From NCBI RefSeq assembly GCF_002742645.2, contig NZ_CP033875.1, forward strand, positions 2,024,001-2,088,000: a DNA stretch of 64,000 bases. Direction: 5' to 3'. The stretch comes from Caulobacter sp. FWC26. GTDB taxonomy: Bacteria > Pseudomonadota > Alphaproteobacteria > Caulobacterales > Caulobacteraceae. Shown one piece after another: positions 36,584 through 58,701 of this stretch (position 1 is its first letter; the number at the start of each line of letters is the position of its first letter). A program made the position numbers and the translations under genes. The notes beneath the pieces are model-generated. The model saw nothing but the letters and a program-made list of their open reading frames with translations. It ran no database searches and was not told where the DNA came from.

Positions 36584-37618
36584 CTATGCCACTAGCGCCA
36601 TGAAACGCACCACGTCCTGCGGCCCGATCTGCATCCGGGTCTGGCTTCTGAGCGCGTCGATGCCGAGGGTGCGGAGATCCTCGTTGAAGTCGCCGAGCTG
36701 GGGCGAGATGACGATCGCCTCGATGCCGGCCGCGTTCGCCCGTTCGACCAGGCTGTCGCGCGCACCGTCACCGGCCGGATCGTCGTCGCGCAGGACGTAG
36801 AGCCGCCGCAGCGTGTCCGGGAACAGGATGGCGGCGAGATGGGCTGCGGAGAGCGCCGCCAGCATCGGCATGTCGGGCAAGACCTGCCTGACCGACAGTA
36901 CGGTCTCGATGCCTTCGCCGGCCGCCATGACTTCGCCGCCCGTGCCGAAGCGCACCGCGTTGCCGAGAAGATCGCCCATCGCCCGCCTCGGCGTGTCGAG
37001 TGGCGCCTTGTCGCGGCGTCGCGGGTCGAGCCAGGTCCGATGCGCTCCGGTGATCCTGTCGCGGAGGTCGGTGACGGCTGCGATCATCGCCGGCCAGGTC
37101 TCGGTCGGAGAATGCTCGTCGGGCCGATAATAGCAGCGCGGGTGGAAGCGCAGGTTTCCGGTTCCGCGTAAATCCGTAATGCCGCGTTCGCGTAAGTACG
37201 ATTGTACGAGCGTGCCGGTGATCGGCTGCGACATGCCGATCAGGCGGCGGGCTGCCTCGGGCGATCCGTGCGGCGCTGGCGCCTGACGTGGGTTCGCCGG
37301 CATCGGCGTGGATGCGGGCATGCTGAGGAAGGTCCGTGCCTCGTCGGCGACGTCCTTGAAGTCGATGAGGCCGCAGCTCTCCCGGATCACGTCGAGAAGA
37401 TCGCCATGCTCGCCGGTCGCGGCGTCGGTCCATTTGCCGGCCGGACCTTTCGGAGAGTCCTTGAGCCGCACATACATCGAGCGACCGGGCGTGTTGCGCA
37501 CGTCGCCGACCAGCCAGTAGCGGCCCTCGCGCCGCCCGCTGGAGAGGTAATGGCGACACACCGCCTCGGCCTGCCGGCCGAGACGCTGCGCGAGATCGGA
37601 AGCATCGCGACGCGACAT
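36584..37618 (-). CDS. Toprim-domain protein (DUF7146 / primase-like)
   Basis: The 344-residue protein has an N-terminal region MSRRDASDLAQRLGRQAEAV with a CHC2-like fold pattern (HYLSSGRREGRYWLVGDVRN). A toprim domain starts at about residue 225 with EVMAAGEGIETVLSVRQ (the catalytic Glu) and YVLRDDDPAGDGARD. It may synthesise primers or act on DNA ends for the incoming strand. The start overlaps the helicase-methylase stop by one base. Confidence 0.85.
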   Translation of the reverse strand: MSRRDASDLAQRLGRQAEAVCRHYLSSGRREGRYWLVGDVRNTPGRSMYVRLKDSPKGPAGKWTDAATGEHGDLLDVIRESCGLIDFKDVADEARTFLSMPASTPMPANPRQAPAPHGSPEAARRLIGMSQPITGTLVQSYLRERGITDLRGTGNLRFHPRCYYRPDEHSPTETWPAMIAAVTDLRDRITGAHRTWLDPRRRDKAPLDTPRRAMGDLLGNAVRFGTGGEVMAAGEGIETVLSVRQVLPDMPMLAALSAAHLAAILFPDTLRRLYVLRDDDPAGDGARDSLVERANAAGIEAIVISPQLGDFNEDLRTLGIDALRSQTRMQIGPQDVVRFMALVA

Positions 37619-41943: not shown

Positions 41944-41984
41944 GAGAGGAACCTCGGAGAGCGGAACAGGAGCGAGCCGGCCCG

Positions 41985-42040
41985 GCGCTCTCTCTCGACC
42001 GGACGGGCTCAAACCCGTCCCGGCCACCCTCTCACTCTGG
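41985..42040 (-). promoter_or_regulatory. 5' leader element upstream of the helicase-methylase gene (variant a)
   Basis: On the coding strand: AGAGTGAGAGGG, a GGACGGG/CCCGTCC hairpin with a 6-nt loop (42001-42020), then GAGAGAGAGC. The same parts occur, rearranged, before parB and DUF932. Confidence 0.5.
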
Positions 42041-42174
42041 CGCGGCCGGAACCCGGCCTGTCGCACCGGCTTCCGGCGGTGCGGATGGGACGCTAAGTTC
42101 TCGTAGGAAAACAAGCCGCTGTGCCTCGCACCATTCGCGCGTGCCGCGCCGGCTGAGTGAGCATCGGAGGCGAG

Positions 42175-42534
42175 ATGAAGGGCAGTGCGATTGGCATTCT
42201 CGGCGCGGCCTGTCTGGCTGTCGGCTTCGGTGCGGGTTTCGTGCTCAGGCCGGTGATCTCGCCGGTCACTGCATCTCCGGCCGTCGCCGCCGGCGTCGCA
42301 GAGCCGAGCGAGGGCGAAGCGACCGCGGCCGTGCGGCGCCATCGCCTGTTCACGGGCACGTCGCTGGCGAACGCGACGCTGAAGCTCGGCGATTGCTCGC
42401 CGGGTGGGGTCGGTCCGGGCGTGACCTGCATGACGCAGATCGTGCTCGATCCGACCAGGCCGAACGCGAGCCCGCAAAACCGGCCAATCGGATTTGCCCG
42501 CGTCAACGGGCAGTGGGAAGTTGCGGTCTGGTAG
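42175..42534 (+). CDS. Small exported or membrane-anchored protein
   Basis: The 119-residue protein starts at ATG 42175 (GGAGG upstream). Its N-terminal helix is SAIGILGAACLAVGFGAGFV. The rest has two cysteines (GDCSPGG, VTCMTQI) that may form a disulphide, and ends NGQWEVAVW. It is the only plus-strand gene in this part of the backbone, so it is separately transcribed. Function unknown. Confidence 0.7.
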   Translation: MKGSAIGILGAACLAVGFGAGFVLRPVISPVTASPAVAAGVAEPSEGEATAAVRRHRLFTGTSLANATLKLGDCSPGGVGPGVTCMTQIVLDPTRPNASPQNRPIGFARVNGQWEVAVW

Positions 42535-42565
42535 CGGCGAGCGAGGACATTGGGCGCGCGCTCGC

Positions 42566-42790
42566 CTATGTCGACGCGTCCGGCGGGCTGTAGATTTCGA
42601 AGGGATTGCCATCGGCGAGATGGCCGAACGGTGTGAAGACGAACTCGCCGTCATCGCGGCCGACGGCGCAGATCACGTAGCGCGGTTCGCCGGTTGCTAC
42701 GTCGGTGCATTCCATCAGCGCCAGGTCGCCACTGTTCGCGGCGCGCAGGAGCGTCTGGAAGTTGGCGCGGGCATGGTCGGGGATGCTCAT
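42566..42790 (-). CDS. DUF6117-type small protein
   Basis: The 74-residue protein, MSIPDHARANFQTLLRAANS, then ALMECTDVATGEPRYVICAV, ends NPFEIYSPPDAS. The pattern is that of DUF6117, found in alphaproteobacterial ICEs. ATG 42790 overlaps the upstream gene's stop by 4 bp. Function unknown. Confidence 0.8.
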   Translation of the reverse strand: MSIPDHARANFQTLLRAANSGDLALMECTDVATGEPRYVICAVGRDDGEFVFTPFGHLADGNPFEIYSPPDAST

Positions 42791-43546: not shown

Positions 43547-45685
43547 TCATTCGGCTGCGACAAGGTGCGCTTCGTCGTCGGTGGCCTCCGCCGTGACAAC
43601 CTCGTCGTCGCCGGCGAGGAACGCGGGCAGCGCCGCATCGTCGTCCTCGCCGCCAGCCTCGACCTCCGGCGTGGACACCTCGGCATCGTCGATCAGGCGC
43701 AGCGGCTCGGGCAGCCAGCCGGTCTCGGCGAGCAGCCGCTCGGCCTCCTTGGCCATGTCGCCCTTCTTCAGGTGGTCGATGAGCTGCGCGGCCTGCTCTC
43801 CGACGCCCTCGCGAACCGCCTGCAGGATGCGGGGCTTGGTGACACGGTTGAGGTAATTGCCGAAGGTCGGGCGCCAGCCGGCCTCCACCAGATCGAGCCC
43901 AGTCGCCTTGGTCAGGCGGTCGGCCTGGGCGAGCCGCATGCCGAGCGTGTGCTGCGACACGCCGCCGGCGCTGTGCGGGTTCGGCCGCTCATAGAGCGCG
44001 TTGACGCCGTAGCTGACGCAATGCGCCAGCAGCGCCATCCGGCTGGCGTCGTCCAAGCCCGCGAGCCAGTCCCATAGGGCATCGTCGTCCTTCGGGATGT
44101 CGCCGGCCCAGGCGGCGTGACGGTCCTGCACCGCGCGGGCGGACGGGCAGTCCTTCAGCCCATCGTCCTGCGCCGGGAAGAAGACGTGCTTCACCCCGGC
44201 CTCCATGGCGCCCGTGTACATGCGGGTCATGAAGGTGTCCGACACCAGCTTGTGGAGCAGTGCGGTCATGGCGACGTGCGGGTTCTCCGCGACGGCGTTG
44301 CGCAGCGCGAGGGTGCGATAGGCCGTCAGCTCGATGACCAGGCGCTCGGGGAGCGGCTTGATCGCGTCGTCCTCGTCGTCCTCCGCCTCGACGGGCTGGC
44401 CGCCGATCGTGATGACGGCGCGCTGCACGGCCGGCGCACCGGGCTCATCCGACCGACCTTCGGTTTCGCCCCCATCGGCCTCGGCGCCGGGGTCGGGAGC
44501 CTCGTCCTCGGCCCGGACATAGCCGCGATCGATGGCGACGGTGCCGTCATGAGCGATGCTGATGAACACACCGGCGCGGGCGATGTCGGCGGCCTCGAAT
44601 CGCACGGGACGGGTGTCGAAGGCCGACAGCGCCGTCTCGATCTCGCCGAGCCGCTGGTCGACCTCGTCGGGCAACTCATCGGCGTCCTCATATTCGGCCT
44701 CGAGCTTCTGGTACTCGGAGTTGAGCGCCGCGATCGTCGCCTGTTCATCCGCCGTCAGGTCGAGCGGTTCGCCCTGCAGCTCGCGCAGGCCGCGCGTTGC
44801 GTCGTAGGGGAAGCTGACCGCGACCTCGATCCACTTCCAGGCCTCGGCGGCGATGGTCTCTGCCGTCGCCTTCAGCTTCTCTGCGACCAGCCGATCGAGC
44901 AGCGCCGCATCCTGCAGCCAGCCGCCATCGTCGGACTGGAACAGGTCGCGCATGACGATGCCACCGGCCAGCTCATAGGCTTCGACACCGACGAAGACGG
45001 CGCGCTTGTCCGAAGCGCGCACCGTCGTCTCGGTGAGCATGCGACGGATTTGATAGGGCTCCTTCGACCAAGCGTCCTTGATCGCCTCCCAGACCTGCTC
45101 CTGGCGGGCATGGTCGTCGGTGACGGTGAAGGCCATGAGCTGGTCGAGCGTCATGCCGTCCTCGGCATAGACGTCGAGCAGGACGGGCGATGCGGCCGCG
45201 AGGCGCAGGCGCTGCTTGACCACCTGGACCGGGACGAAGAGCGCTGCGGCGATCTCCTCCTCGGTCTTGCCCTTCACCCGCATATCCTGGAAGGCGCGGA
45301 ACTGGTCCAGCGGATGAAGCGGCGCGCGATCGATATTCTCGACCAGCGACACTTCCTCGGACAGGACCTCGTCGTCGCGCTTGCGCACGACGCACGGCAC
45401 GGGGGCGATCTTGGCGAGGCGCTTCTGCTTGACCAGCAGCTCCAGCGCACGGAAGCGGCGGCCGCCGGCCGGGACCTCGAACATGCCGGTCTCCTGACCT
45501 TCGGCGTCGACCACGGGCACGACGCTGAGGCTCTGGATCAGGCCGCGACGCGCGATCGAGGCCGCCAGGTCCTCGATCGAGATGCCGGCCTTCACACGCC
45601 GGACGTTGGACTGGCTGAGCACCAGCTTGTTGAAGGGGATGTCGCGTGAGGACGACAGGATGATCTTCTGAACTGCAGTAGCCAT
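43547..45685 (-). CDS. parB: Large ParB/Srx-domain protein of ICE type
   Basis: The 712-residue protein has an N-terminal ParB/Spo0J domain: LVLSQSNVRRVKAGISIEDL, GGRRFRALELL, LSEEVSLVENIDRAPLHPLD (the ParB box region) and the helix-turn-helix TEEEIAAALFVPVQVVKQRL. The long C-terminal part has acidic linkers and no known enzyme motif. It is much longer than chromosomal ParB (about 300), a form typical of ICEs and plasmids, and may act on gene expression rather than partition. The start is preceded by the shared leader (variant b). Confidence 0.9.
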   Translation of the reverse strand: MATAVQKIILSSSRDIPFNKLVLSQSNVRRVKAGISIEDLAASIARRGLIQSLSVVPVVDAEGQETGMFEVPAGGRRFRALELLVKQKRLAKIAPVPCVVRKRDDEVLSEEVSLVENIDRAPLHPLDQFRAFQDMRVKGKTEEEIAAALFVPVQVVKQRLRLAAASPVLLDVYAEDGMTLDQLMAFTVTDDHARQEQVWEAIKDAWSKEPYQIRRMLTETTVRASDKRAVFVGVEAYELAGGIVMRDLFQSDDGGWLQDAALLDRLVAEKLKATAETIAAEAWKWIEVAVSFPYDATRGLRELQGEPLDLTADEQATIAALNSEYQKLEAEYEDADELPDEVDQRLGEIETALSAFDTRPVRFEAADIARAGVFISIAHDGTVAIDRGYVRAEDEAPDPGAEADGGETEGRSDEPGAPAVQRAVITIGGQPVEAEDDEDDAIKPLPERLVIELTAYRTLALRNAVAENPHVAMTALLHKLVSDTFMTRMYTGAMEAGVKHVFFPAQDDGLKDCPSARAVQDRHAAWAGDIPKDDDALWDWLAGLDDASRMALLAHCVSYGVNALYERPNPHSAGGVSQHTLGMRLAQADRLTKATGLDLVEAGWRPTFGNYLNRVTKPRILQAVREGVGEQAAQLIDHLKKGDMAKEAERLLAETGWLPEPLRLIDDAEVSTPEVEAGGEDDDAALPAFLAGDDEVVTAEATDDEAHLVAAE

Positions 45686-47574: not shown

Positions 47575-48585
47575 ATGTCGACTAAGCAAATTCTCGCACT
47601 CCTGAACTCGCATATCGACGGGGATGAGGACCAGCTCCTGTCGATCGCCTTGCAGATCGCCGCTCAGGAAGCTCGCCAGGGCCGTGCGGATGACGCTGAG
47701 AAGCTGAAACGGCTTGTCCAGAAGGCACGTGATCAGCGAGGGACCGGCAAACCTGCCGGCGGACAGACCCCGATCCCGCTCGCCCGGCCGCGCGGCGAAT
47801 TGCAGGGCCTCGTCGAGAGCGCCTATCCCAAGGTTGCGCTCTCGAGCATGGTGCTCTCCGATGAAATTGCCAAGCGGCTGGGCCGTGTCGTCCGCCAGCA
47901 GCAGGAGCGTGCGACCCTGCGTGAGCACGGACAGACCCCCGCCACGCACATGCTCCTTGTTGGCCCGCCCGGAACGGGCAAGACGATGACGGCCTCGGCC
48001 TTGGCCGGCGAACTGCGGCTGCCGCTGTTCACGGTCCGGCTCGAATCGCTGTTCAGCCGGTTTTTCGGCGAGACCGCCGGCAAGCTGCGCTTGCTCTTCG
48101 ACCAGATTGCGCAGACCCGCGGCGTCTATCTACTTGATGAGTTCGACGCGATCGGCTCTCGCCGAGGCCACCCGAACGATGTCGGCGAAATACGACGGGT
48201 TCTGAATTCGGTGCTGGCCTTCATGGAGGAGCCAAATTCAACCGACAGTCTCGTGCTGGCCGCGACCAATCATGTCGAGATCCTGGACGAAGCTCTGGCG
48301 CGTCGTTTCGACGAAGTGGTCGAATATACATTGCCAGACGCGACGTCAGCGCGGGCCATCGTTGAACGTCGGCTTGGCAAGTTCAAGTTCGCGTCGACGG
48401 TATGGCCCGGCATTGAAAGCGTGCTCGAAGGCCTGAGCCAGGGCGAGTTGGTCCGCGCGGCCGATGCCGTCGTCAAGGACGCCATCCTGGAAGGCGCCTC
48501 GAAGGTATCGCCCGATGCCTTGCGTGACGCGCTCCAAAATCGACAGACTTTGAAGGGCAAGTTCCGTCGCCAACCCGGCCGTTAG
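47575..48585 (+). CDS. ietA: IetA-type AAA ATPase (antitoxin/partner of IetS)
   Basis: The 336-residue AAA+ ATPase contains LLVGPPGTGKTMTASALAGE (Walker A, about 125), YLLDEFDAIGSRRG (Walker B), ATNHVEILDEALARRFDEVV (sensor and arginine-finger region) and a helical lid. The 120-residue N-terminus is Gln/Arg-rich. The pairing with a subtilisin-like gene 52 bp downstream matches the IetA/IetS module, first described as a stability system of Agrobacterium pTiC58 and later listed among antiviral defences. The ATPase is expected to restrain or direct the protease. Confidence 0.8.
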   Translation: MSTKQILALLNSHIDGDEDQLLSIALQIAAQEARQGRADDAEKLKRLVQKARDQRGTGKPAGGQTPIPLARPRGELQGLVESAYPKVALSSMVLSDEIAKRLGRVVRQQQERATLREHGQTPATHMLLVGPPGTGKTMTASALAGELRLPLFTVRLESLFSRFFGETAGKLRLLFDQIAQTRGVYLLDEFDAIGSRRGHPNDVGEIRRVLNSVLAFMEEPNSTDSLVLAATNHVEILDEALARRFDEVVEYTLPDATSARAIVERRLGKFKFASTVWPGIESVLEGLSQGELVRAADAVVKDAILEGASKVSPDALRDALQNRQTLKGKFRRQPGR

Positions 48586-48637
48586 GCAGGCTCCGCCGAA
48601 CGGATCGAACGGAACGCGAATGAAGAAGTAGGAGCCT

Positions 48638-51190
48638 ATGGCAGAGCCCGATAATTTCGACACGAGAGACCGCGCGCATATCTCGATCGACGTCTTTCGT
48701 GAGACCGCGGCCTATACCTTTCCCTCACGCAATCAGGAACGCAAACCCCTCCGGGGAGACTATACGGCGCATGCGACGCAGCTCCTCGACCAGCTCGCAG
48801 CGGCGCTGGGGACGGTTCCGGCTGCCGCTGCCGACCCGCGCCTGCCCATACAGGGGCTGAAATCCGGTACTGTCGTGGAGGTCACGACGCTGCCGCCAGC
48901 GGAAGACTCCCGGATCAAGGCCGTGAAGGTGCCCGCGGCGCTGGAGTTTCCTACACAGGACGTTGTGATCTTGCGATCGGAGCGCAACGAGGACCGCACC
49001 GAAAGCGCCTTGGTGTTCGTGCCGGATGATGCCCGCGCCTTCCTGCGCAATCGCATCGCTGACTATGGACGCGATCCCGGCAATCAGAGACGCCCCGATG
49101 CCGAGCGGTTCGAGGTGATCGAGGAAGTCAGGGCTGCAGAAGCCGTATCGCTGTTCACCGGCGAGGTGGATCTGGCTGCGCCCGACATCCTATGGTGGGA
49201 GCTCTGGGTTCGCCAGCCGGTCGCACTAGCGGATCGCCTGGTGGCGGCGGCCCGCAATGCGAACATCGATGTGCACGGCGATCGCCTGATCTTTCCCGAC
49301 ACGACGGTTGTCTTCATTCACGCGGTTGCTGCGGCGGTGGCAGCGTTCGCGGCGCGCGTGCCAGGCGCCATCACCGAAATTCGCCGCGCGACGGGAACGA
49401 TCGAGCCTTTCCTCGACCGTGGGGAGACCGGTCTTGGACAGCATGACTGGGTGGAAGAGCTGGCGCAGCGCGTGAGCCCGCCGTCTCCTGACGCTCCCGT
49501 GGTCTGTACGCTCGACACTGGCGTGATGGCGGCTCATCCGTTGATTGCGCCCGGCCTGCGCGGCGCTTGGGCTTACGATCCCGCCTGGGGTGCGGACGAT
49601 CACCAGCCGCATGGCGGTCACGGCACGCCGCTTGCGGGGCTCGTACTCTACGGCGACCTGGAACCGTTGATGAACGATGAGCGTCCTGTCGAACTCACCC
49701 ATGGCGCCGAATCCATGAAGCTGCTGCCGCCCGGCGGGTTTCCGCCAACAAAGCCGCCCAGCTACGGTGTGGTGACCCAGGGCGCCGTCAGTTCGGTCGA
49801 GATCGAGCGCCCGGATGTGGTGCGGAGCTTTTGCATCGCCACGTCCGCCACCGATTTCCCTCCAAGCCGGCCATCGACTTGGAGCGGTGCGATCGACCAG
49901 ATCGCGGCGGGGGCCATGCCAGGCGAGGCTGATGACACCGTCCCGGCCGCGGAACGACCGAAGAGGCTGATCGTCGTCGCCACCGGGAACGTCTCTGGTG
50001 GCATGGCGGTGGACGTCCTTCCTTCGCAGCCTCTGGAAGACCCGTCACAGAGCTGGAACGCCCTGACCATCGGCGGCTTCACGCGCAAGGAGCAGCCGCC
50101 GGCGCCGCCGCCGGTGTTGCAGGCCGCCGTTCCGGCCAATCACCGCAGCCCGTTCAGTCGTGGCTCACAGTCGCTGCCCGACGACCTGACGCCGATTAAG
50201 CCGGAAGTCTTGTTCGAGGCCGGCAATATGATGTCGGACGCGACCGGCTTCTGCGGCTGGGACCCGGCCGTCTCTCTCCTGTCGGCCGGCTCCGATGTGA
50301 CGGCTGAACCGCTTGTCCCGTTCTGGGCGACGAGCGCTGCCGCCGGCATGGCCGGAAACTTCATCGGCCGCCTGCAGGCGGCTCGGCCGGACCTGTGGGC
50401 GGAGACGCACCGCGCACTGACCGTGGATTCGGCCCGATGGCCCGAACCGATCCGGAGAAAGTTCATCGGCACCGGTGCCCACTGGAAGACCGGGAAGGCG
50501 GCCACCAAGGGCAAGAAGCAGGAGATGCTTCGCGAGTTCGGTTACGGCGTACCGGACATCGAGCGAGCGATCCTGTCGGCGCGCAATGACGCCACGCTCG
50601 TCGCCCAGGCCGAGATTCAGCCCTTCGCGATCGGTGCGGACGGCCGGACCGGCGTGTTCAATGAGATGCACTTCTACGATCTGCCTTGGCCGAAAGCAGC
50701 GCTGGAGAAGCTCGAAAACGAGATTGTCACGATGAAGGTGACCTTGTCGTATTTCATCGAGCCGAACTTGGCGGGCAAGGCGGCGACCCGACCGGACACC
50801 TATCGTTCTTTCGGGCTGCGGTTTGACATGAAGAAGCGCACCGAGACGGCAGCGCGCTTCCGTAGCCGGATTTCAGCGAGCCAGGCCAAGGACGGCACCG
50901 AAGCCGATGGCGAGGCCAGTTGCTGGCTTCTAGGGCCAAAAGCTATCCAGGCGGGGTCGCTGCATTGCGATCTGTGGCGCGGCAGGGCGATCGAACTGGC
51001 AGGTCACGACGCCATCGCGGTCTATCCGGTCGGGGGATGGTGGAAGTCGCACGTCGGCCAGAAGCGGGTGGCTGATAAGGCGCGGTACGCTCTGGTCATT
51101 TCCATCTCTGCGCCCGGCCAAGATGTCGATCTCTACAGTGAGATCAGCACGCTTGTTGAGAACAAAGAGATAGAAGTGCTACTCGGTTAG
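48638..51190 (+). CDS. ietS: IetS-type subtilisin-like serine protease (S8)
   Basis: The 850-residue protein has a 270-residue N-terminal region, then the S8 catalytic domain: Asp in VVCTLDTGVMAAHPL (about 290), His in HQPHGGHGTPLAGLVLYG (about 328), an oxyanion Asn in VVATGNVSGG and Ser in FWATSAAAGMAGNF (about 568). It has no signal peptide, so it acts in the cytoplasm. A C-terminal beta-rich domain may recognise targets. It is co-transcribed with ietA. It probably acts as the toxic effector after infection or plasmid loss (inference). Confidence 0.8.
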   Translation: MAEPDNFDTRDRAHISIDVFRETAAYTFPSRNQERKPLRGDYTAHATQLLDQLAAALGTVPAAAADPRLPIQGLKSGTVVEVTTLPPAEDSRIKAVKVPAALEFPTQDVVILRSERNEDRTESALVFVPDDARAFLRNRIADYGRDPGNQRRPDAERFEVIEEVRAAEAVSLFTGEVDLAAPDILWWELWVRQPVALADRLVAAARNANIDVHGDRLIFPDTTVVFIHAVAAAVAAFAARVPGAITEIRRATGTIEPFLDRGETGLGQHDWVEELAQRVSPPSPDAPVVCTLDTGVMAAHPLIAPGLRGAWAYDPAWGADDHQPHGGHGTPLAGLVLYGDLEPLMNDERPVELTHGAESMKLLPPGGFPPTKPPSYGVVTQGAVSSVEIERPDVVRSFCIATSATDFPPSRPSTWSGAIDQIAAGAMPGEADDTVPAAERPKRLIVVATGNVSGGMAVDVLPSQPLEDPSQSWNALTIGGFTRKEQPPAPPPVLQAAVPANHRSPFSRGSQSLPDDLTPIKPEVLFEAGNMMSDATGFCGWDPAVSLLSAGSDVTAEPLVPFWATSAAAGMAGNFIGRLQAARPDLWAETHRALTVDSARWPEPIRRKFIGTGAHWKTGKAATKGKKQEMLREFGYGVPDIERAILSARNDATLVAQAEIQPFAIGADGRTGVFNEMHFYDLPWPKAALEKLENEIVTMKVTLSYFIEPNLAGKAATRPDTYRSFGLRFDMKKRTETAARFRSRISASQAKDGTEADGEASCWLLGPKAIQAGSLHCDLWRGRAIELAGHDAIAVYPVGGWWKSHVGQKRVADKARYALVISISAPGQDVDLYSEISTLVENKEIEVLLG

Positions 51191-51297: not shown

Positions 51298-51786
51298 TTA
51301 CGCGAACAGGCGAGCGACCTCGGCCATCGGGAGGAAAAGACGGCGGCCGGCGTTATCCAAGGGAAGGAAGTCGTAGGCGCGGTAGAAAGCTCCTGCGGCT
51401 TCGTCCTTCGCGTCGACCAGGATGGCGAATGTGGTGATTTCGCTGCGCAGCGCTCGTGCGAAGGCGTCCAAAAGCATGTGCTCGCCCAGTCGGCGTCCGC
51501 GATGGCGCCGATCGACGGCGAGTCGCCCGAGCAACGTCGCCGGTACGACGGGGTAGCGCGGCAAGCGCTTCGTCAGCGTTGCCGGAAGGTTGGACAGAGC
51601 GATCGATGTTCTGGCAAGTGTCGAGAACGCGAGAGGCGTGAGATCACCCTCTACGAGGACGAAACAGGAGGCGACGCGTCGGCGAACGTCCTGACTGGCT
51701 TGGGTGCGGAAATATCGGTCTAGCGCGTCCACGCCGGACTCGAACCCGGCGCGATCGTGAGTGTCGTCGAGTGTCTGGATCAACAA
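51298..51786 (-). CDS. GNAT-family acetyltransferase toxin
   Basis: The 162-residue protein starts at TTG 51786, three bases after the antitoxin stop. The acetyl-CoA site is LGRLAVDRRHRGRRLGEHML (the RxxGxG/A-like P-loop). FYRAYDFLPL is the C-terminal signature of TacT/AtaT-like toxins, which acetylate aminoacyl-tRNA. It pairs with a DUF1778 antitoxin. It lies convergent to ietS and on the opposite strand from the rest of the defence cargo. Confidence 0.85.
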   Translation of the reverse strand: MLIQTLDDTHDRAGFESGVDALDRYFRTQASQDVRRRVASCFVLVEGDLTPLAFSTLARTSIALSNLPATLTKRLPRYPVVPATLLGRLAVDRRHRGRRLGEHMLLDAFARALRSEITTFAILVDAKDEAAGAFYRAYDFLPLDNAGRRLFLPMAEVARLFA

Positions 51787-51789
51787 GGG

Positions 51790-52107
51790 CTAGCGAGCAT
51801 TCGGCTCATGCGCCGCGACCGACGCCATATAGCGCCGAGCGGCCGCGGAAAGTCGCGAGCCGGGCTCTCGGGGGTTCAGGAGAGCCTCGGCGAAAGCGCG
51901 GCTTTCATCAACCGCTAGCTTGACCGACTGCAGGTCCTCAAGGGTGCGCACGGCGGCCTCATGCACGCTCGAGATGACAAAATCCGTGAGCGTTCGGCCC
52001 TGCAACTCGGCAGCACGGAGGAAAAGTTCCTTCTGATCAGAGGACACACGCGCCTCCAATCGCTCGCTGCGGGCCGCGACCCGCCTTTTCGCCGCCGTAT
52101 GTTTCAT
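51790..52107 (-). CDS. DUF1778 antitoxin
   Basis: About 105 residues from ATG 52107. The N-terminal ribbon-helix-helix is ERLEARVSSDQKELFLRAAE, then LTDFVISSVHEAA, as in TacA/AtaR. The C-terminal tail (FAEALLNPREPGSRLSAAAR) should wrap the toxin. It probably represses its own promoter, in the 124-bp divergent region shared with hsdS. Confidence 0.85.
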   Translation of the reverse strand: MKHTAAKRRVAARSERLEARVSSDQKELFLRAAELQGRTLTDFVISSVHEAAVRTLEDLQSVKLAVDESRAFAEALLNPREPGSRLSAAARRYMASVAAHEPNAR

Positions 52108-52231
52108 GGGCCATTGCCTTAATGATCGCCTGAAGGCTATTGTACGGCTTACAGCCGGACGCATCAAGGGGGTGAAGGCGAGCCTTTGGGCGGTTCAGCT
52201 TCTTGGTGCGCGGTAATAGGCGCACAAGACC

Positions 52232-53423
52232 ATGAGCACGAACGACGATCAGACACCTTCTCGACCCGACCTTCCGGCCGGCTGGGCGGTGGTCCGCGTC
52301 GACCAGGCCGGCGCCGTTCGACTCGGCCGTCAACGGTCCCCGGATCAAGCCATGGGCGAACACCTGACCAAATATATTCGAGCCGCGAATATCACCCCTG
52401 CGGGTATCAATCTTGATGACCTGCTGGAGATGAATTTCACCCCGGCCGAGCAGCAGGTGTTCGGTCTTGAGGTGGGGGATGTCCTGCTGACCGAAGCCTC
52501 GGGGAGCGCTAGCCAAGTCGGCCGATCAGCGATCTGGCGCGGTGAGGTGCAGCCCTGCTGCTATCAGAACACGGTCATCCGTTTTCGCCCCCATCTAACC
52601 ACGCCCGAGTATGCGTTGATCGTATTCCGACAAATGGCCGTATCCGGCGCCTTCGCTCAAGCCGCTCGAGGTGTCGGCATTCAGCATCTCGGCGCTTCGC
52701 GATTCGCAGAACTAGACTTTCCATTGCCACCGTTGAAGGAACAGGCGCGGATCGTTGCCATAGCTGACCAACGCTTGACCGAAATCCGCGAGGCCGAGAC
52801 GCGACTCCAGTCCGCATTGCGGCTTCTGGATGAGCAGCTCCGAGAGGTGCTCGCTGCGGCCGTTGCCGGTGAGCTGGTCGCGCAGCGGGATGAAGAGCTA
52901 TCCGAGCGCAGCCGCACGCCGGCGAGCGCGGCGCGCGCTGAACCAGATCTATTCGGTCAAAGCGAACGGGCGCCTAACCTAGAAGGCTTTGACCCGGTGC
53001 TTCCCGCGGGCTGGGCTTGGTCGCGCGTCGATGGGGCGGGCGAGGTGACCCTCGGCCGCCAGCGTTCACCCAAGCATGAACGCGGCAAGCACATGCGGCC
53101 CTATCTTCGGGTCGCCAACGTCTATGAGGATCGGATCGATACCTCGGACGTGCTCCGCATGAACTTCGAGCCTGAGGAAGTGGCCATCTATGAATTGCGC
53201 GACGGGGACATTCTGCTGAACGAGGGACAGAGCCCTGAGCTGGTGGGTCGCCCAGCGATCTACCGAGGTGAGGTGCCGGGCGCGTGCTTCCAGAATACGC
53301 TTATACGCTTCAGAGCGTATGAGCACGTGGACCCCAATTACGCGCTGTTGGTCTTTCGACACTACATGCATTCGGGTGTTTTCAAATCCATTGCCCGGTG
53401 GTCGACCAACATTGCCCATCTAG
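52232..53423 (+). pseudogene. hsdS: Type I specificity subunit HsdS, 5' part (split by IS5)
   Basis: The first 397 codons of an S subunit. TRD1 (about 10-165) begins LPAGWAVVRVDQAGAVRLGR. The conserved helix follows with LPPLKEQARIVAIADQRLTE. TRD2 begins LPAGWAWSRVDGAGEVTLGR (about 255) and ends at STNIAHLG where the IS enters. The two TRDs are similar to each other (SAIWRGEVQPCCYQNTVIRF against PAIYRGEVPGACFQNTLIRF), so the target may have related half sites. With the IS present the frame runs on only to a TGA at 53450-53452. Confidence 0.9.
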
Positions 53424-53494
53424 GCTCAGGACCTATTAAATTGCTTGCATGACGGGCGTTGCTCTGATTCCCGATAGGGATCGGGGAGGCGTTG

Positions 53495-53863
53495 ATGAGC
53501 GATCTTTTGTGGTTGTCGGACAGGCAGATGGCGGTGATTGCGCCGTTCTTTCCGTTGGCGCACGGCGTACCTCGGGTGGATGACCGGCGGGTGGTGTCGG
53601 GGATCGTGTTCGTGATCCGGAACGGCCTGCGCTGGCGCGATGCGCCGTCGGCCTATGGGCCGCACAAGACGCTGTATAATCGGTTTGTGCGCTGGAGCCG
53701 CCTGGGGGTGTTCGACCGCATCTTCGCGGCCCTGGCCGGACAGGCGGGAGAGCCGGACGCCATCATGATCGACAGCACCCACCTGAAGGCGCATCGCACG
53801 GCGGCGAGCCTGCTCAAAAAGGGGATGTTCCCCGCCGCATCGGGCGAACCAAGGGCGGCCTGA
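53495..53863 (+). CDS. IS5-family transposase, OrfA part
   Basis: About 122 residues starting at the second of two ATGs. DUF4096-like start LWLSDRQMAVIAPFFP, then VFVIRNGLRWRDAPSAYGPH and the first DDE aspartate region DAIMIDSTHLKAHRTAAS. It should be joined to OrfB by a -1 frameshift at 53816-53824. Confidence 0.9.
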   Translation: MSDLLWLSDRQMAVIAPFFPLAHGVPRVDDRRVVSGIVFVIRNGLRWRDAPSAYGPHKTLYNRFVRWSRLGVFDRIFAALAGQAGEPDAIMIDSTHLKAHRTAASLLKKGMFPAASGEPRAA

Positions 53864-54258
53864 ACTCCAAGCTGCACACCGTCTGCGACGACCGGGGGCG
53901 GCCCCTGGTCATGCTGCTCACCGAAGGCCAGATGAGCGACCACAGGGGCGCCGCCCTCATGCTGGGCGCCCTGCCGCGCGCCCGCGTCCTCATCGGCGAC
54001 AGGGGCTACGACAGCCGCGGCTTCCGCGACGCTCTCGCCGCCCGCGGAACCGACGCCTGCATCCCCTCAAGCCGCAGCCGCAAGATCCCAATCCCCCACG
54101 ACCCGGCCGTCTATCGCCGCCGACACAGGATCGAGAACCTCTTCGCCCGCCTCAAGGACTGGCGCCGCATCGCCACCCGCTACGACCGGTGCGCCCACAC
54201 CTTCATGGCCGCCATCACCATCGCCGCCATCATGATCTTCTGGATCAATGAGTCCTGA
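53825..54258 (+). CDS. IS5-family transposase, OrfB part (frameshift continuation)
   Basis: The -1 frame continues with DVPRRIGRTKGGLNSKLHTV, the second aspartate region RVLIGDRGYDSRGFRDALAA and the Glu region RHRIENLFARLKDWRRIATR. It is the C-terminal part of the DDE transposase. An internal ATG at 53911 could start a shorter product. It ends at TGA 54256-54258, two bases before the IS end. Confidence 0.88.
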
Positions 54259-54260
54259 GC

Positions 54261-54803
54261 CTAGGCCTAGAGCGATACCGGGCGTTGCCGTTCCCGACGC
54301 CACCTTTGGCGGAGCAGGCGAGGATTGTGCAGGCGGCGCGAGATCGGCTGCGCATCACACAACAACAGATATCAGCCGTACGGACCTCGTTGGCTCGCCT
54401 GCCTGATCTCGAGCAGGAGCTGTTCGCTGCGGCCGTGGCCGGAGAACTCGCTCCTCAGGATCCCAACGATGAGCCGGCGTCGGCGCTCGCAATCAGGCTG
54501 GGCGGTCCGCCGCAGGCTGTGACCGCGGTGACGACGAAGAGCTCGGGAGGAAAGAATATGCCGCAACGTAAACCACGCCCATCGCGACAGGCGGAGCCAA
54601 GTCCTGATCTGACGTCCGTCCTCCGCGAGAATGGCGGGGTTCTTCCCTTGCCGGATCTGTTCGCATTAGCGGGATACAATCGCGACATGCCCGAGCATGT
54701 CGAACTTTTCTACCTCGCGCTTCGCGAGGGCATGAAAGGAAGCTTGCGGCTGAGAGGCGAGGCAACCGAGAACGCCGAAGTGGAGATCGTCGATGCGGCT
54801 TGA
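54261..54803 (+). pseudogene. hsdS: Type I specificity subunit HsdS, 3' part
   Basis: Continues the S subunit: LERYRALPFPTPPLAEQARI (second conserved helix, mirroring the one after TRD1), then a linker (PQRKPRPSRQAEPSPD) and a C-terminal alpha-helical module DLTSVLRENGGVLPLPDLFA ending AEVEIVDAA. With one CTAG copy removed, 52232-53423 plus 54265-54803 make an unbroken 577-codon frame. An in-frame TTG at 54285 might express this piece alone. The stop overlaps the start of the ATPase gene by 11 bp. Confidence 0.88.
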
Positions 54804-56403
54804 GAAGGTCAGGATCGGCTCCTTCAAAAACCTTCGTGACCTTAACGTCGTCTTCGACGAGCTCTCACCTTACACCGTCCTCGTTGGCGAAAACGGTGCC
54901 GGGAAGTCGAATCTGATCGAGGGCCTAGCGCTGGTCTTCCGCAACCTCGATCTCGATGTGGAGGCCCCCTTCGACTACGAGCTGCAATATGAGTGCCGTG
55001 ACAACATCATATCGGTCAAGGCGAAGGCCGACCAGCATCCCAGCTTTCGGATAAGGCGGCCGGGCGAAGAGTCGTTCGCGGACTTATCCCGCAAGGCCTT
55101 CATGGCGGAGGACGCGGATGGGCGGCCTCGCCACCGGCCGGCGTTTGTGTTCGGCTATTACTCTGGGCCGAGTGATCGCCTAACGTCGATCTTCGAGAAG
55201 CATCGGGAGCGCTTTTACAGCTGGATCATCAAAGCGCCGGAGCAACGTGGGAAGGCGATCGCTGACCCGAATTCGCTGCGACGGCTGTTCTACGCCGAAA
55301 CGCTGCACGGCCAGTTCGCCCTGATCGCCTTCTTCATGGAGGCGAGTGAGGCGTCGAAGGCCGACCGCGACTTCCTTCGCGACCACCTGCAAATCGAGGG
55401 TCTCGACAGTGTTCTGTTCGCTCTCAAGGAGCCGCCGTGGAAGCGCAAAGGCGGCGATCCGCGTTTCTGGAACGCCGTGGGCGAGGTTCAGCAGTTTCTT
55501 GCTTACCTTTACGACAAGGCACTGTTGCCGCTCCGTATGACGCGGCGAATTCCGATCGACTTGACCAAGAACCCGATCGTTCAGAGCTTATACCTGTTCC
55601 TCTCCAACACCGACGCGCTGGCCGAAGTTTACCGAACCTACGGCAACCAATATGCCTTCTTCACGGCATTGGAGAGCATGCACCTATCGAAAGTGCTCGG
55701 CGAGGTGCGCACTCGCGTCAAGATGACGCCGGAAGCTGGCGGCGGGAACGTGACCTACCGCGACTTGAGCGAGGGCGAACAGCAGTTGTTGCTCGTGCTC
55801 GGGCTTCTGAAATTTACCGCGAGGGATGAAGCTCTCTTCCTGCTCGATGAGCCGGACACCCATTTGAACCCCGCCTGGAGCACTCAGTATCTCAGTTTCC
55901 TCGACCGTTTCATCCGCGATCGGGACAGTTGCCATATTGTGATGTCGACGCATGATCCGTTGGTCTTCGCTGGATTGAAGCGCGAACAGGTGCGGATTTT
56001 TCGGCGTGACGAACAGGGGTGCGCCGTTGCTGACCCTCCTGACCAAGACCCGCGGGGCATGGGCGTCGCAGCTATTCTAACAAGCGATCTCTTCCGGCTG
56101 CGCACCACATTGGACCCCGAAACCCAGGCGGATCTTGATAAGCAACGCCTGTTGGCCATGAAGGAGAACCTCACTGATGACGATCAGGCCGAACTGGCGC
56201 GGCTGCGGGAGGTGCTGCGCGGGCGCGGTTTCGACCTGACGCAGCGCGATCCACTTTATCAGGAATTCCTGAAGGCCTGGACTGCCCAGGAGGACCCTCG
56301 CTGGCGCGAGACTGTGGAACTCACCCCTGAACAGCAGCAGGCGCGGAGCCGTTTAGCCGCTCGCATCGTCGAGGAGCTGCGTCGCGAGCAGGGCATGTCG
56401 TAA
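54793..56403 (+). CDS. AAA/ABC-type ATPase resembling Septu PtuA
   Basis: The 536-residue ATPase has Walker A GENGAGKSNLIEGLAL (residues about 33-48), a long helical insertion, an ABC-like signature RDLSEGEQQLLLVLGLLKF, Walker B ALFLLDEPDTHLNP and a switch His in IVMSTHDPLVFAG. The C-terminal 130 residues are helical. It is the SMC/RecF-like kind seen in PtuA and OLD proteins, without a TOPRIM domain. Translation is coupled to hsdS (11-bp overlap) and the HNH gene follows after 4 bp. Probably the sensor/ATPase of a nuclease complex. Confidence 0.85.
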   Translation: MRLEKVRIGSFKNLRDLNVVFDELSPYTVLVGENGAGKSNLIEGLALVFRNLDLDVEAPFDYELQYECRDNIISVKAKADQHPSFRIRRPGEESFADLSRKAFMAEDADGRPRHRPAFVFGYYSGPSDRLTSIFEKHRERFYSWIIKAPEQRGKAIADPNSLRRLFYAETLHGQFALIAFFMEASEASKADRDFLRDHLQIEGLDSVLFALKEPPWKRKGGDPRFWNAVGEVQQFLAYLYDKALLPLRMTRRIPIDLTKNPIVQSLYLFLSNTDALAEVYRTYGNQYAFFTALESMHLSKVLGEVRTRVKMTPEAGGGNVTYRDLSEGEQQLLLVLGLLKFTARDEALFLLDEPDTHLNPAWSTQYLSFLDRFIRDRDSCHIVMSTHDPLVFAGLKREQVRIFRRDEQGCAVADPPDQDPRGMGVAAILTSDLFRLRTTLDPETQADLDKQRLLAMKENLTDDDQAELARLREVLRGRGFDLTQRDPLYQEFLKAWTAQEDPRWRETVELTPEQQQARSRLAARIVEELRREQGMS

Positions 56404-56407
56404 CGCG

Positions 56408-57250
56408 ATGCAGTACATTAATTTGGAAGATATCCTGCCCAACATCCGGCATCTGCTCGCCGATCTGCAAACGGCGCAAGACCTCATCATGGCCGAAGCC
56501 GACCCCCGCCGTCGGGCTGCGCTCATTGAGGCAAACCAGAACCGGTGGACTGCGTTGCGCGACGCCTTCGAGGGCGCGTCGGGCGGCAAATGCTGGTACA
56601 CCGAGTGTGAGAGTCCTGGCGCGGACAACGACATCGACCATTTCCGGCCGAAGGGGAAGGTAAAAGAGGACCGGCGTCATCCCGGCTACTATTGGCTGGC
56701 CTTTGACTGGCGCAACATGCGGTTGAGCTGTCAGCGAGCGAACCGGCCACGGATTGCTCCGGGCGCCCGCGTTGCCGGCGGGAAATCGACCCATTTCCCG
56801 CTTCTCGCGACCGGTGTACGCGCAACCGAGCCAGGCGACGACATCCGTCTTGAGCATCCGGCTTTGCTGGATCCCACCGACCCCGGGGATCCGATTTTGC
56901 TGACGTTTTTACCGAACGGCGAGATCGATCTGTCTCCGCAGTATCGCGGAAATGCTGTCGCTGAAGCCAAGATCGCCGCCAGTCGATTGGGCCTGCACCT
57001 AAACTGGCCAAAGTTCGTGGAGGGCCGCATGACGCTCTACAACATTATTGAGCGCGACGTGGAGCGCGGCAAGCGAGAAGCGCCGAACGACTACCTTGGG
57101 ATGCCGCAAGCCTCGCAAGCCTTCAAGGATGTGATCGGTGACCTCAAAAGGCGGCTGAACCCGAGGGCGCAGTACGCGGCTGCGGCCAAGGTCTACGTCG
57201 AATCGTTTCGTGATATTTGGTGGATTAACGACGTGGTGTTGAAGCTCTGA
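56408..57250 (+). CDS. HNH endonuclease resembling Septu PtuB (TIGR02646-like)
   Basis: The 280-residue protein has the HNH core DIDHFRPKGKVKEDRRHPGY, then YYWLAFDWRNMRLSCQRANR, preceded by KCWYTECES (a zinc-type cysteine region). This arrangement is the hallmark of retron- and Septu-associated HNH nucleases. It is expected to cut nucleic acid when released by its ATPase partner. It lies 4 bp after the ATPase gene and 2 bp before hsdM, so all are one operon. Confidence 0.85.
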   Translation: MQYINLEDILPNIRHLLADLQTAQDLIMAEADPRRRAALIEANQNRWTALRDAFEGASGGKCWYTECESPGADNDIDHFRPKGKVKEDRRHPGYYWLAFDWRNMRLSCQRANRPRIAPGARVAGGKSTHFPLLATGVRATEPGDDIRLEHPALLDPTDPGDPILLTFLPNGEIDLSPQYRGNAVAEAKIAASRLGLHLNWPKFVEGRMTLYNIIERDVERGKREAPNDYLGMPQASQAFKDVIGDLKRRLNPRAQYAAAAKVYVESFRDIWWINDVVLKL

Positions 57251-57252
57251 TT

Positions 57253-58701
57253 ATGGTGGGAACCCAGCAACGCGCCGATGGCGCACAGAACATTGTTCGT
57301 CGCCTCTGGCAGTATTGCAATATCCTGCGGGATGATGGCTTGTCTTACCCAGATTATGTCGAGCAGCTTACTTATCTGCTGTTTCTCAAGATGGCGGACG
57401 AGCAAGCGGGTGAGATGGTCCCAAAGGAGCTCTCGTGGGGCGTTCTTGCCAGCCTTGATGCGGTCGAGATGCACGCGCATTACACCCGTATTCTGCCCGC
57501 CCTCGGTGAGCTGGGAGGAATGCTGGGCCTGATTTTTGGCAACGCCAAAAACAAGATACGCGATCCCGCAAAACTGCGGCTCCTCATCGTTGATCTGATT
57601 GGCCAGACGGAGTGGACAGGCCTATCCGATGATCTGAAAGGGGACGCGTACGAGGGGCTGCTTGAGAAGAATGCACGCGACACCAAGAGCGGGGCAGGCC
57701 AGTATTTCACTCCGCGCCCCTTGATCGAGGCCGTTGTCGCTTGTGTGGATCCGCGTCTGGGCGAAGTCATCTGTGATCCAGCGTGCGGCACAGCCGGATT
57801 TTTGCTCGCGGCTCACGACTACCTCCGAGAGAATAATCCCGAAATGACGCCGCGGCAACGCAAACAGCTTGCCACCAAAGCGATCCGCGGGGTCGAACTC
57901 GTCGAAGAGGTTGCACGGTTAGCCACGATGAACCTGCTGCTGCATGGCGTCGGCGGCAATGCCGAAGATGAGCTGCCGATCGCGTGCGAGGACAGCCTGA
58001 AGGCACCACCAAAGATGCAGGTCGATGTGGTGCTTACGAATCCCCCCTTCGGCATCAAAGGCAGCGTGACCTATTCACAAGGGAAGTCGTCCCGGGTCGA
58101 CGACAGCCTTACTATCGTTCGCCCCGACTTTTGGGTTCAGACCGCCAACAAGCAGTTGAACTTCATGCAGCACATCGTGGCGCTGCTGAAACCGGGCGGC
58201 CGTGCGGCGGTCGTCGTGCCAGACAATGTTCTCTTTGAGACCGGTGCCGCAGCATCGGTTCGCCGCCGCTTGGTTGAGACATGCCGGCTCCACACCATCC
58301 TGCGGCTTCCGCCGGGCCTGTTTTATGCCGCGGGCGTTAAGTCAAACGTCGTCTTTTTCGACAAGCCGGTTCGCGCCTCCGGCGGTCCTGCGGAATCGAT
58401 CTGGGTCTATGACCTTCGGTCTGACAAGCGCTTTTCGCTCCGTACCAAGCCGCTGCAGGCTGAAGACCTTCGCGAATTCGTAACGCTGTTCAAATCGGAT
58501 CATCGGGAAAGCGGCGATCGGCACCGGCAATTTGCGACGTCTCACGTCCTCGCGAACGCTGACTGCCGGCTCGATCTTACGTGGAGCGCGACTGGGGCGG
58601 CGCAACGCACGCCCGGCCTCGCTCGTCTCGATGAGCTGTCGGAGTTGGTCGCTGATGATCTCCGGCGGGCGCTGGAACTCATCACTAAGGCGAAGGCTTG
58701 A
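57253..58701 (+). CDS. hsdM: Type I restriction-modification methyltransferase HsdM
   Basis: The 482-residue N6-adenine methyltransferase has an N-terminal helical domain (YPDYVEQLTYLLFLKMADEQ), then YFTPRPLIEAVVACVDPRLG, motif I ICDPACGTAGFLLAAHDYL, motif IV VVLTNPPFG and PGGRAAVVVPDNVLFE. With HsdS it would methylate a bipartite site. It comes last in the operon, after the ATPase-HNH pair, instead of the usual M-S-R order. No HsdR translocase-endonuclease is found within this window. Confidence 0.95.
   Translation: MVGTQQRADGAQNIVRRLWQYCNILRDDGLSYPDYVEQLTYLLFLKMADEQAGEMVPKELSWGVLASLDAVEMHAHYTRILPALGELGGMLGLIFGNAKNKIRDPAKLRLLIVDLIGQTEWTGLSDDLKGDAYEGLLEKNARDTKSGAGQYFTPRPLIEAVVACVDPRLGEVICDPACGTAGFLLAAHDYLRENNPEMTPRQRKQLATKAIRGVELVEEVARLATMNLLLHGVGGNAEDELPIACEDSLKAPPKMQVDVVLTNPPFGIKGSVTYSQGKSSRVDDSLTIVRPDFWVQTANKQLNFMQHIVALLKPGGRAAVVVPDNVLFETGAAASVRRRLVETCRLHTILRLPPGLFYAAGVKSNVVFFDKPVRASGGPAESIWVYDLRSDKRFSLRTKPLQAEDLREFVTLFKSDHRESGDRHRQFATSHVLANADCRLDLTWSATGAAQRTPGLARLDELSELVADDLRRALELITKAKA

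Follow-up and report, generated by a model that had tools for sequence, protein, structure and literature searches.

Background

Why should a nuclease pair of the Septu type lie between the subunit genes of a type I methyltransferase, with no gene for the restriction subunit HsdR beside it? The question is raised by a 64,000-nucleotide stretch of Caulobacter sp. FWC26 (hereafter the window; C3:2024001-2088000 of a 4.87-Mb genome). There, the list of open reading frames (ORFs) places genes for the specificity subunit HsdS, a PtuA-like ATPase, a PtuB-like HNH nuclease and the methyltransferase subunit HsdM one after another on the + strand at 52232-58701. We have found that these four genes recur as a unit in many phyla, that HsdS of this unit ends in a winged-helix module, and that HsdR is present in some lineages and absent in others. 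Our favoured reading, to which we assign a probability of about 0.6, is that HsdMS acts as a sensor and that the winged helix of HsdS couples it to PtuAB, a Septu effector.

Septu, type I methyltransferases and PrrC guards are known, as are type I operons with defence genes embedded in them. Septu EcB88 PtuAB protects as a two-gene system; this pair and the PtuAB of retron-Eco7 cleave tRNA-Tyr, and a further Septu PtuAB reportedly degrades DNA. The restriction-modification (R-M) enzyme keeps PrrC silent and an anti-restriction factor activates it; PrrC is a guard that senses inhibition of the R-M enzyme. The gene list of the cloned PrrC system reads HsdR, HsdS, PrrC, HsdM. TgvAB protects alone, though less than the whole cluster in which it occurs. 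Among open-licence papers in PMC, the titles and abstract openings held no paper on an HsdMS-PtuAB unit. Judged by those titles and abstract openings, the stable four-gene unit with its HsdS tail, its HsdR-less clade of frozen specificity and its candidate internal start appears to be new.

Recurrence of the four-gene unit

Of 400 relatives turned up by a genome scan for the ATPase family, the best 80 were retrieved. Five plasmid loci brought the set to 85, and profiles made in this analysis were run over all their frames before the genes were recounted. HsdS ends at most 70 bp from the start of PtuA in 81 of the 85 loci, and the two genes overlap in 50, mostly by 4, 11 or 14 bp. PtuB lies directly after PtuA in 84/85 loci, and HsdM is within the cluster, before HsdS or after PtuB, in 82/85. 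HsdS adjacency is missing from four loci: contig ends truncate L026 and L080, an interval of 1.7 kb that holds an IscB-like gene (labelled by eye) separates HsdS from PtuA in L063, and L038 is considered in the Discussion. The hosts belong to Pseudomonadota, Actinomycetota, Acidobacteriota, Chloroflexota, Bacillota, Bacteroidota, Cyanobacteriota, Planctomycetota, Verrucomicrobiota and others, and include a Methanosarcina metagenome-assembled genome (MAG). An earlier reading of the window, made from its sequence only, had taken the four genes for one operon; this hidden Markov model profile search upholds the claim of a single, recurrent unit as against a chance neighbourhood.

The system is rare. 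It occurs in the window's own genome only among 101 near relatives, and within the same class PtuA was found in 2 of 385 genomes, the window's being one of them. Ten of 5426 complete Escherichia coli genomes hold matches, one of merely 56 bp and nine longer. All four E. coli stretches inspected, two of them nearly identical, are M-S-A-B islands without HsdR (R, M, S, A and B standing for HsdR, HsdM, HsdS, PtuA and PtuB). One M-S-A-B copy comes from the environmental E. coli OW1E2 (L190). No ATPase relative was found in phage records at E 1e-20.

The C-terminal winged-helix module of HsdS

Leave-one-out profiles detect a C-terminal module in 81 of 83 PtuA-linked HsdS proteins, the window's included, and miss it in L063 and L095; a count read off the alignment gives 82/83, and the profile count is used here. 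Among 48 PtuA-bearing genomes from the 80 fetched loci, 47 have one strong module match each, in frames of 524-662 aa or, in the copy broken by an insertion sequence (IS), of 183 aa; the 48th is the genome of L038, which is without HsdS. Across the 385 genomes of the class, the module occurs in the same two genomes as PtuA and in one marginal 82-aa frame (8e-4). Ordinary type I loci of this class with a related HsdM carry it in 0 of 10 cases; nine of these ten have HsdR, and the tenth is a 3.3-kb contig.

In an AlphaFold model of the homologue from L014 the module has the fold H-E-H-H-E-E, and a structural search matches it to winged-helix structures. There were also ten secondary matches to the module. 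One is a 531-aa frame with no PtuA match in the 14 kb fetched around it. The other nine are frames of 98-105 aa (in G136, G139, G532, G537, G541-G543, G144 and G146) that match module-profile positions 15-50 at E 1e-6 to 1e-3, and represent either a distant relative of the module or a small winged-helix family that has nothing to do with it. The sequence-only reading had noticed a module added to HsdS and offered it as a possible docking site. The module itself (54606-54800) is real, conserved in the family and tied to PtuA; the docking part of that proposal is a matter for the Discussion.

HsdR is optional

Among the 81 rows of the ATPase tree, an HsdR-type gene lies within the cluster on its upstream side in 27; 48 rows (the window included) show no such gene, and six are undecided. 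HsdR is therefore adjacent in 27/75 resolved loci and not in 48/75. Absence calls vary with the length of the flanks: L086, HsdR-less in the tree, has an HSDR_N frame on the same contig about 12 kb from the module, and L016 has a weak HSDR_N match 49 kb off. On the positive side, rows L034, L044, L062 and L070 are fragmentary or cut, and some HsdR genes lie up to 1.7 kb from the next cluster gene. The HsdR label changes at least 15 times on well-supported branches, and its clustering on the tree is weak (44/500 shuffles as low). In the window clade (15 rows, 100% support), whose hosts range from Mesorhizobium to Amycolatopsis, HsdR is present in 0/15.

Genome-wide, HSDR_N is absent from 17 of 46 genomes tested (from 58 loci without adjacent HsdR). 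These include the genomes of window-clade loci L013, L018, L019, L023, L024 and L027; the others include several MAGs, whose sequence may not be complete. Twenty-five HsdR proteins from 24 loci could be aligned (ResIII in 25, EcoEI_R_C in 24, HSDR_N in 19), and their D...ExK (PD-ExK) nuclease and helicase motifs are at least 90% conserved.

HsdR is thus optional in HsdMS-PtuAB units. Units without hsdR do exist, as the 48 loci and 17 genomes attest, and the window has none, as had been claimed. The sole HSDR_N match found in the window genome lies about 1.3 Mb away and belongs to a separate, full R-M-S operon of ordinary type I make-up (G000:C3:739237-746327; L115:4238-11328), whose HsdS is without the winged-helix module. 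The further idea that the ATPase-HNH pair replaces HsdR is not supported in that simple form, given the 27 loci with an upstream HsdR-type gene and the motifs kept in the 25 aligned proteins. Retention of such an HsdR beside PtuAB points instead to PtuAB as an added effector, positioned like PrrC.

Protein families and comparison with known systems

The window ATPase matches PADLOC PtuA1 (582.9 bits over residues 1-533), the HNH protein matches PtuB1 (207.9 bits), and HsdM matches the PADLOC type I methyltransferase (537.3 bits) and N6_Mtase (228 bits). PtuA is an SMC/Rad50-like ATPase in which the Walker A, signature and Walker B regions are conserved among relatives; a Pfam scan matched AAA_21, AAA_15, SMC_N and weaker models, and found no translocase-type domain. 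The NPPF motif of HsdM is present in 77/77 sequences and a strict motif I pattern in 58/77. Residues H78, N103 and N112 of PtuB are invariant in 51 aligned proteins. The nine PDB chains that best match the PtuB model (predicted local distance difference test, pLDDT, 94.6) are of PtuB size (205-234 aa) and belong to complexes of retron Ec78/Eco7, retron I-A and E. coli Septu; a PDB sequence search with the HNH protein returned nothing. PtuB seems to have been exchanged between lineages, judging by L073, L084, L187, L188 and their relatives, in which ATPases are 70-81% identical and PtuB 31-36%; other pairs keep both.

The unit resembles Septu type I in that the matches to PtuA1 and PtuB1 are almost full-length and the two genes are adjacent. 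Known Septu is a self-contained two-gene system or a retron effector, however, and here HsdS adjoins in 81/85 loci and HsdM is in the cluster in 82. Scores against the retron PtuAB models (NF041760, NF041761) lie far below their cut-offs, at 57.2 of 500 and 26.9 of 150 bits. HsdM matches EcoKI M and HsdS has two target domains and long conserved helices, as in type I R-M of the EcoKI kind; unlike that kind, the window clade is without HsdR, its HsdS has the extra winged helix, and its target domains are conserved and alike. In PrrC of EcoprrI-type operons, too, an ABC-type ATPase nuclease is inserted in a type I operon next to hsdS, and R-S-A-B-M loci have this arrangement; they differ in having two proteins, one an HNH nuclease, and apparently other Pfam ATPase families, and HsdR is often missing from the unit.

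Weaker likenesses were found to other systems. MADS shares, by model names, a methyltransferase, an AAA ATPase and an HsdS-like protein, but the matches to NCBIfam MAD2, MAD3 and MAD5 are all far below cut-off (114.9/720, 43.3/420 and 35.3/400 bits). All 43 of 43 aligned ATPases match TIGR04435 (restriction system-associated AAA family ATPase) with E values no higher than 1e-20, although the window ATPase reaches 118.1 bits against a cut-off of 300; the NCBIfam name already ties such ATPases to restriction systems. TgvAB and DarTG2 are likewise two-gene defence modules within hsd operons, but they stand beside a full type I enzyme, and the texts consulted describe no matching HsdS tail.

The window locus and its broken hsdS

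The features of the window locus are as follows.

52232-53452, + strand: 5' part of hsdS with two target-recognition domains (ORF; PADLOC Specificity_I, 259.9 bits; Methylase_S)
53420-54264, + strand: IS5-family IS inside hsdS (18-nt inverted repeats; DUF4096, DDE_Tnp_1 and IS5 models)
53492-53863 and 53911-54258, + strand: IS transposase frames (DUF4096 and DDE transposase domains)
54285-54803, + strand: 3' part of hsdS, comprising the end of the conserved region, the linker and the C-terminal module (ORF; Specificity_I, 52.8 bits)
54546-54560, + strand: candidate internal translation start of a putative free module protein of 81 residues, with ribosome-binding site ggagg at 54546-54550 and ATG at 54558-54560 (sequence)
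54606-54800, + strand: HsdS C-terminal winged-helix module, proposed PtuA coupling element (leave-one-out profiles; AlphaFold model of a homologue)
54793-56403, + strand: PtuA-like SMC/ABC-type ATPase, 536 aa (PADLOC PtuA1; Pfam)
56408-57250, + strand: PtuB-like HNH nuclease, 280 aa (PADLOC PtuB1; structure model)
57253-58701, + strand: HsdM, N6-adenine methyltransferase, 482 aa, EcoKI M-related (PADLOC; Pfam)
59354, no strand: right end of the cluster-bearing mobile element (identity to L012 and L013 ends exactly there)

The junctions are an 11-bp overlap between hsdS and the ATPase gene (54803/54793), a 4-bp gap before the HNH gene (56403/56408) and a 2-bp gap before hsdM (57250/57253), so the gene order and all three spacings given earlier were reproduced. 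The hsdS gene is present as described, but it is not intact: the sequence-only reading had overlooked an IS5-family element that splits it. HsdS-type sequence in the first ORF reaches about 53423, the remainder of the frame being IS, and picks up again at 54285-54803. The element has inverted repeats at 53420-53437 and 54247-54264 (89% complementary) with CTAG at either end, and lies past most of the second target domain. Its hsdS flanks join in frame, by eye, when set against L014 (Mesorhizobium caraganae LMG 24397), one of the relatives whose HsdS is intact and has both target domains. The genome gave a single match to the IS, with 40 of 113 first-look candidates scored. The window hsdS is thus a natural mutant in which the ATPase, HNH and hsdM frames are still open.

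The broken allele has travelled. The same DNA, IS included, occurs in Sphingomonas sp. S2M10 (L013; 99.86% over 14,562 bp) and in a Hyphomicrobiales MAG (L012; 99.99% over 7,312 bp), and the ATPase, HNH and hsdM frames are open in these copies too. A 4.9-kb MAG contig (L011) is 100% identical but starts downstream of the IS, and so is uninformative on it. Beyond 59354 the flanks in L012 and L013 are unrelated, and the L011 contig ends 2 bases before; the break in identity places the cluster at one end of a mobile element, and because L012 and L013 share the allele, the insertion in hsdS predates at least one transfer. With HsdS broken, the system as described cannot be complete in the window genome, and the window copy is probably inactive. 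Were HsdMS a plain antitoxin, its breakage should kill. Either PtuAB needs HsdS, then, or the free module restrains PtuAB, or the IS silences the downstream genes. Survival of the allele argues against a simple antitoxin role for HsdMS, unless the free module suffices or the genes are silenced.

Target specificity of HsdS

The part of HsdS that reads DNA varies in many lineages and is fixed in the window's. Among 15 window-clade loci outside the window, with a median ATPase identity of 65%, 91/105 pairs have 40% identity or more in both target domains, and no pair falls below 30%. The two domains within each HsdS are also alike (37-71% in 15/15); no other HsdS compared reached 35%. Conserved and mutually similar domains suggest a single target, fixed and symmetric. 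In clades where HsdR occurs at least once, by comparison, a domain falls below 30% in 173/176 pairs and both reach 40% in two. Domains are swapped there even at ATPase identities of 95-99% (L073/L087, L073/L092 and L084/L086); L073 and L087 share 99% of A, 99% of B and 93% of M, and 23% of the second target domain. Exchange of target domains between loci whose A, B and M are nearly the same suggests that the cell makes use of HsdS specificity.

Swaps also occur without HsdR. The E. coli loci L188 and L189 are 90% identical in A and 94% in B, with target domains at 21% and 20%; L065 and L082 are 80% identical in A, with target domains at 18% and 36%, and one of their genomes has just a 52-aa HSDR_N match holding a stop and the other has none. 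A general rule that absence of HsdR means frozen specificity was considered and rejected, failing for L188/L189 and for L065/L077/L082. Frozen specificity without HsdR fits the 15 window-clade loci and L037/L040/L055 (3/3 pairs), and partly L067/L069/L081 (1/3 pairs).

A candidate internal start for the free module

The window has ggagg, 7 nt and ATG at 54546-54560, on the 3' side of the IS. The 20 codons before the module were scanned for such starts in 76 full HsdS genes, with 17 control bins from the same genes. ATG with a Shine-Dalgarno match of at least 4 bases was found in 43/76 genes against a control mean of 2.0, and ATG or GTG with at least 5 bases in 33/76 against 1.3. After thinning to 49 genes (ATPases below 70% identity), ATG or GTG with at least 5 bases was found in 19 against 0.8. 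In 100 synonymous shuffles of these 49 genes, ATG or GTG with 5 bases gave a mean of 7.9 and a maximum of 13 (19 observed), and ATG with 4 bases a mean of 15.2 and a maximum of 21 (25 observed); ATG with 5 bases did not exceed the shuffles (mean 6.2, maximum 11, observed 11). The excess is therefore owed in part to the amino-acid make-up of the linker. No ATG or GTG with a 4-base match lies within the 20 codons in 17/76 genes. In the window clade the start is at -15 or -16 in 14/16 genes (not L022 or L025), with ATG and GTG alternating.

Stand-alone relatives of the module numbered 34 in a search restricted to short proteins, 11 of them with 80-82 residues, and several of the ten sequences examined begin at the internal Met. 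These proteins come with no gene context, many lie on contigs shorter than 2 kb, and the source hsdS may be broken or cut. Taken together, the data suggest that hsdS may also yield the module as a free protein of about 80 residues from an internal start. In L061 (8434-9999) an in-frame stop right behind the HsdS core cuts off the linker and module, which form a second frame that has a start and an AGGAG to itself; L061 is a MAG, and the stop may be an error.

Neighbouring genes and related loci

An IetAS defence pair lies beside the cluster at 47575-51190 (IetA, AAA ATPase, 228.7 bits; IetS, subtilase, 96.3 bits), which marks the mobile element as a defence island. A toxin-antitoxin pair, a GNAT acetyltransferase and a TacA1-type antitoxin, stands between IetAS and hsdS (51298-52167, - strand). 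Further upstream are a 1678-aa Strawberry-notch-type helicase (37618-42654, - strand; AAA_34, Helicase_C_4) and, near it, a ParB-domain gene (43547-45685), an arrangement common on mobile elements.

A second, divergent M-S-ATPase-HNH unit occurs in the same class (L123:3084-9660, in G493). It comprises HsdM, a transposase-like frame (by eye), HsdS with a C-terminal extension of its own, a 541-aa PtuA-like ATPase (137.3 bits) and a 357-aa protein with a weak match to the PADLOC candidates PDC-M01B/M62B (33.9 bits); no HsdR profile match was found in its 18 kb. In G193 (L121:600-9405), an ordinary type I operon carries a 610-aa AriA/OLD-like ATPase between its hsdR and hsdS genes.

Discussion

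We propose that HsdM and HsdS form a type I methyltransferase that would read and mark a DNA sequence, and that PtuA (the SMC-like ATPase) and PtuB (the HNH nuclease) would serve as its effector. The winged helix at the end of HsdS, carried on a flexible linker, would couple PtuA to HsdMS, and the internal start probably also makes it as a free protein. Marked host DNA would keep PtuAB idle. When invading DNA is unmarked, or when a phage inhibitor blocks HsdMS, HsdS would license PtuAB, which may then cut nucleic acid (relatives of PtuAB are reported to cut DNA or tRNA) and so stop the infection. HsdR would be an extra that some lineages have and the window clade does without. The R-S-A-B-M layout, which is the PrrC layout with PtuAB in PrrC's place, favours this reading of HsdMS as sensor and PtuAB as effector. 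The loci themselves establish the gene linkage, the module, units free of HsdR and the conservation of catalytic motifs; docking, the internal product, the trigger and the target are inferences drawn from them.

Several points weigh against the proposal. The locus survey covers the best 80 of the 400 ATPase relatives from the scan. In L038 (Tengunoibacter), A and B stand alone in 21 kb, with neither HsdS nor HsdM. Docking of PtuA on HsdS is suggested by the co-occurrence of the module with PtuA, and the most attractive structural analogue, the winged helix of the kleisin ScpA, failed in a profile comparison (0.26% probability). Lastly, the window allele has lost an intact HsdS although its A, B and M frames are open, and it recurs in two further records.

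One alternative is a guard or decoy of the PrrC kind, in which HsdMS silences PtuAB, a phage anti-restriction protein frees it, and HsdMS of the HsdR-less clade is a pure decoy, which would explain the fixed specificity. The R-S-A-B-M order (10 rows by tree labels) mirrors the cloned PrrC system, the regulation known for PrrC offers a precedent, the PtuAB pairs of Septu EcB88 and retron-Eco7 are tRNA nucleases, and target domains in the window clade hardly diverge. We nevertheless hold it doubtful, because A and B persist in two other records of an allele that has lost HsdS, and because the HsdR-less systems of E. coli and of L065/L082 swap their target domains, which a decoy need not do.

Unlikely, too, is a hybrid restriction enzyme, in which HsdMS marks self and docked PtuAB cuts DNA at or near unmethylated targets in HsdR's stead. 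Loci without adjacent HsdR are the majority, HSDR_N is missing altogether from 17 of the 46 genomes tested, the HsdR-less pairs L188/L189 and L065/L082 have swapped target domains, and one Septu PtuAB is reported to degrade DNA. Yet an HsdR-type gene stands beside PtuAB in 27 of the 75 resolved loci, the 25 HsdR proteins aligned keep their motifs, PtuA has no recognizable translocase-type domain, and target domains of the window clade do not diversify, which is unusual for a restriction system; the HsdR-less status in E. coli, moreover, covers the inspected stretches, and an HsdR elsewhere in those genomes is possible. Such an enzyme is possible above all for HsdR-less lineages with swapped target domains, such as E. 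coli L188/L189.

It is improbable that Septu merely sits in a type I operon and works alone, as TgvAB or DarTG2 might, even with that embedding documented, TgvAB protective by itself and EcB88 PtuAB sufficient as two genes, since adjacency to HsdS holds over many phyla and persists without HsdR, and since cargo working alone would need no matching HsdS tail, which 81/83 PtuA-linked HsdS proteins have against 0/10 at ordinary loci.

Going beyond the sensor-effector reading, we put forward only tentatively, with the odds somewhat against it, that these loci are a distinct class of methylation-licensed nucleases. In this class hsdS would make both a full subunit and a free winged-helix adaptor that couples or restrains the ATPase-HNH pair, HsdR would be dispensable, and the window's cross-phylum clade would be frozen on a single symmetric target as a fixed self-signal or decoy.

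For annotation, the module at the end of HsdS is a signature that predicts an adjoining PtuAB, and the natural copies in nine of the 5426 complete E. coli genomes (matches longer than 56 bp) open the system to direct testing. If the proposal is true, two textbook systems would be joined in one machine, with methylation as the mark of self, the Septu nuclease as executioner and the HsdS tail as the plug between them. Septu-type nucleases would then gain a defined, testable sensor, and type I methyltransferases without HsdR would gain a role.

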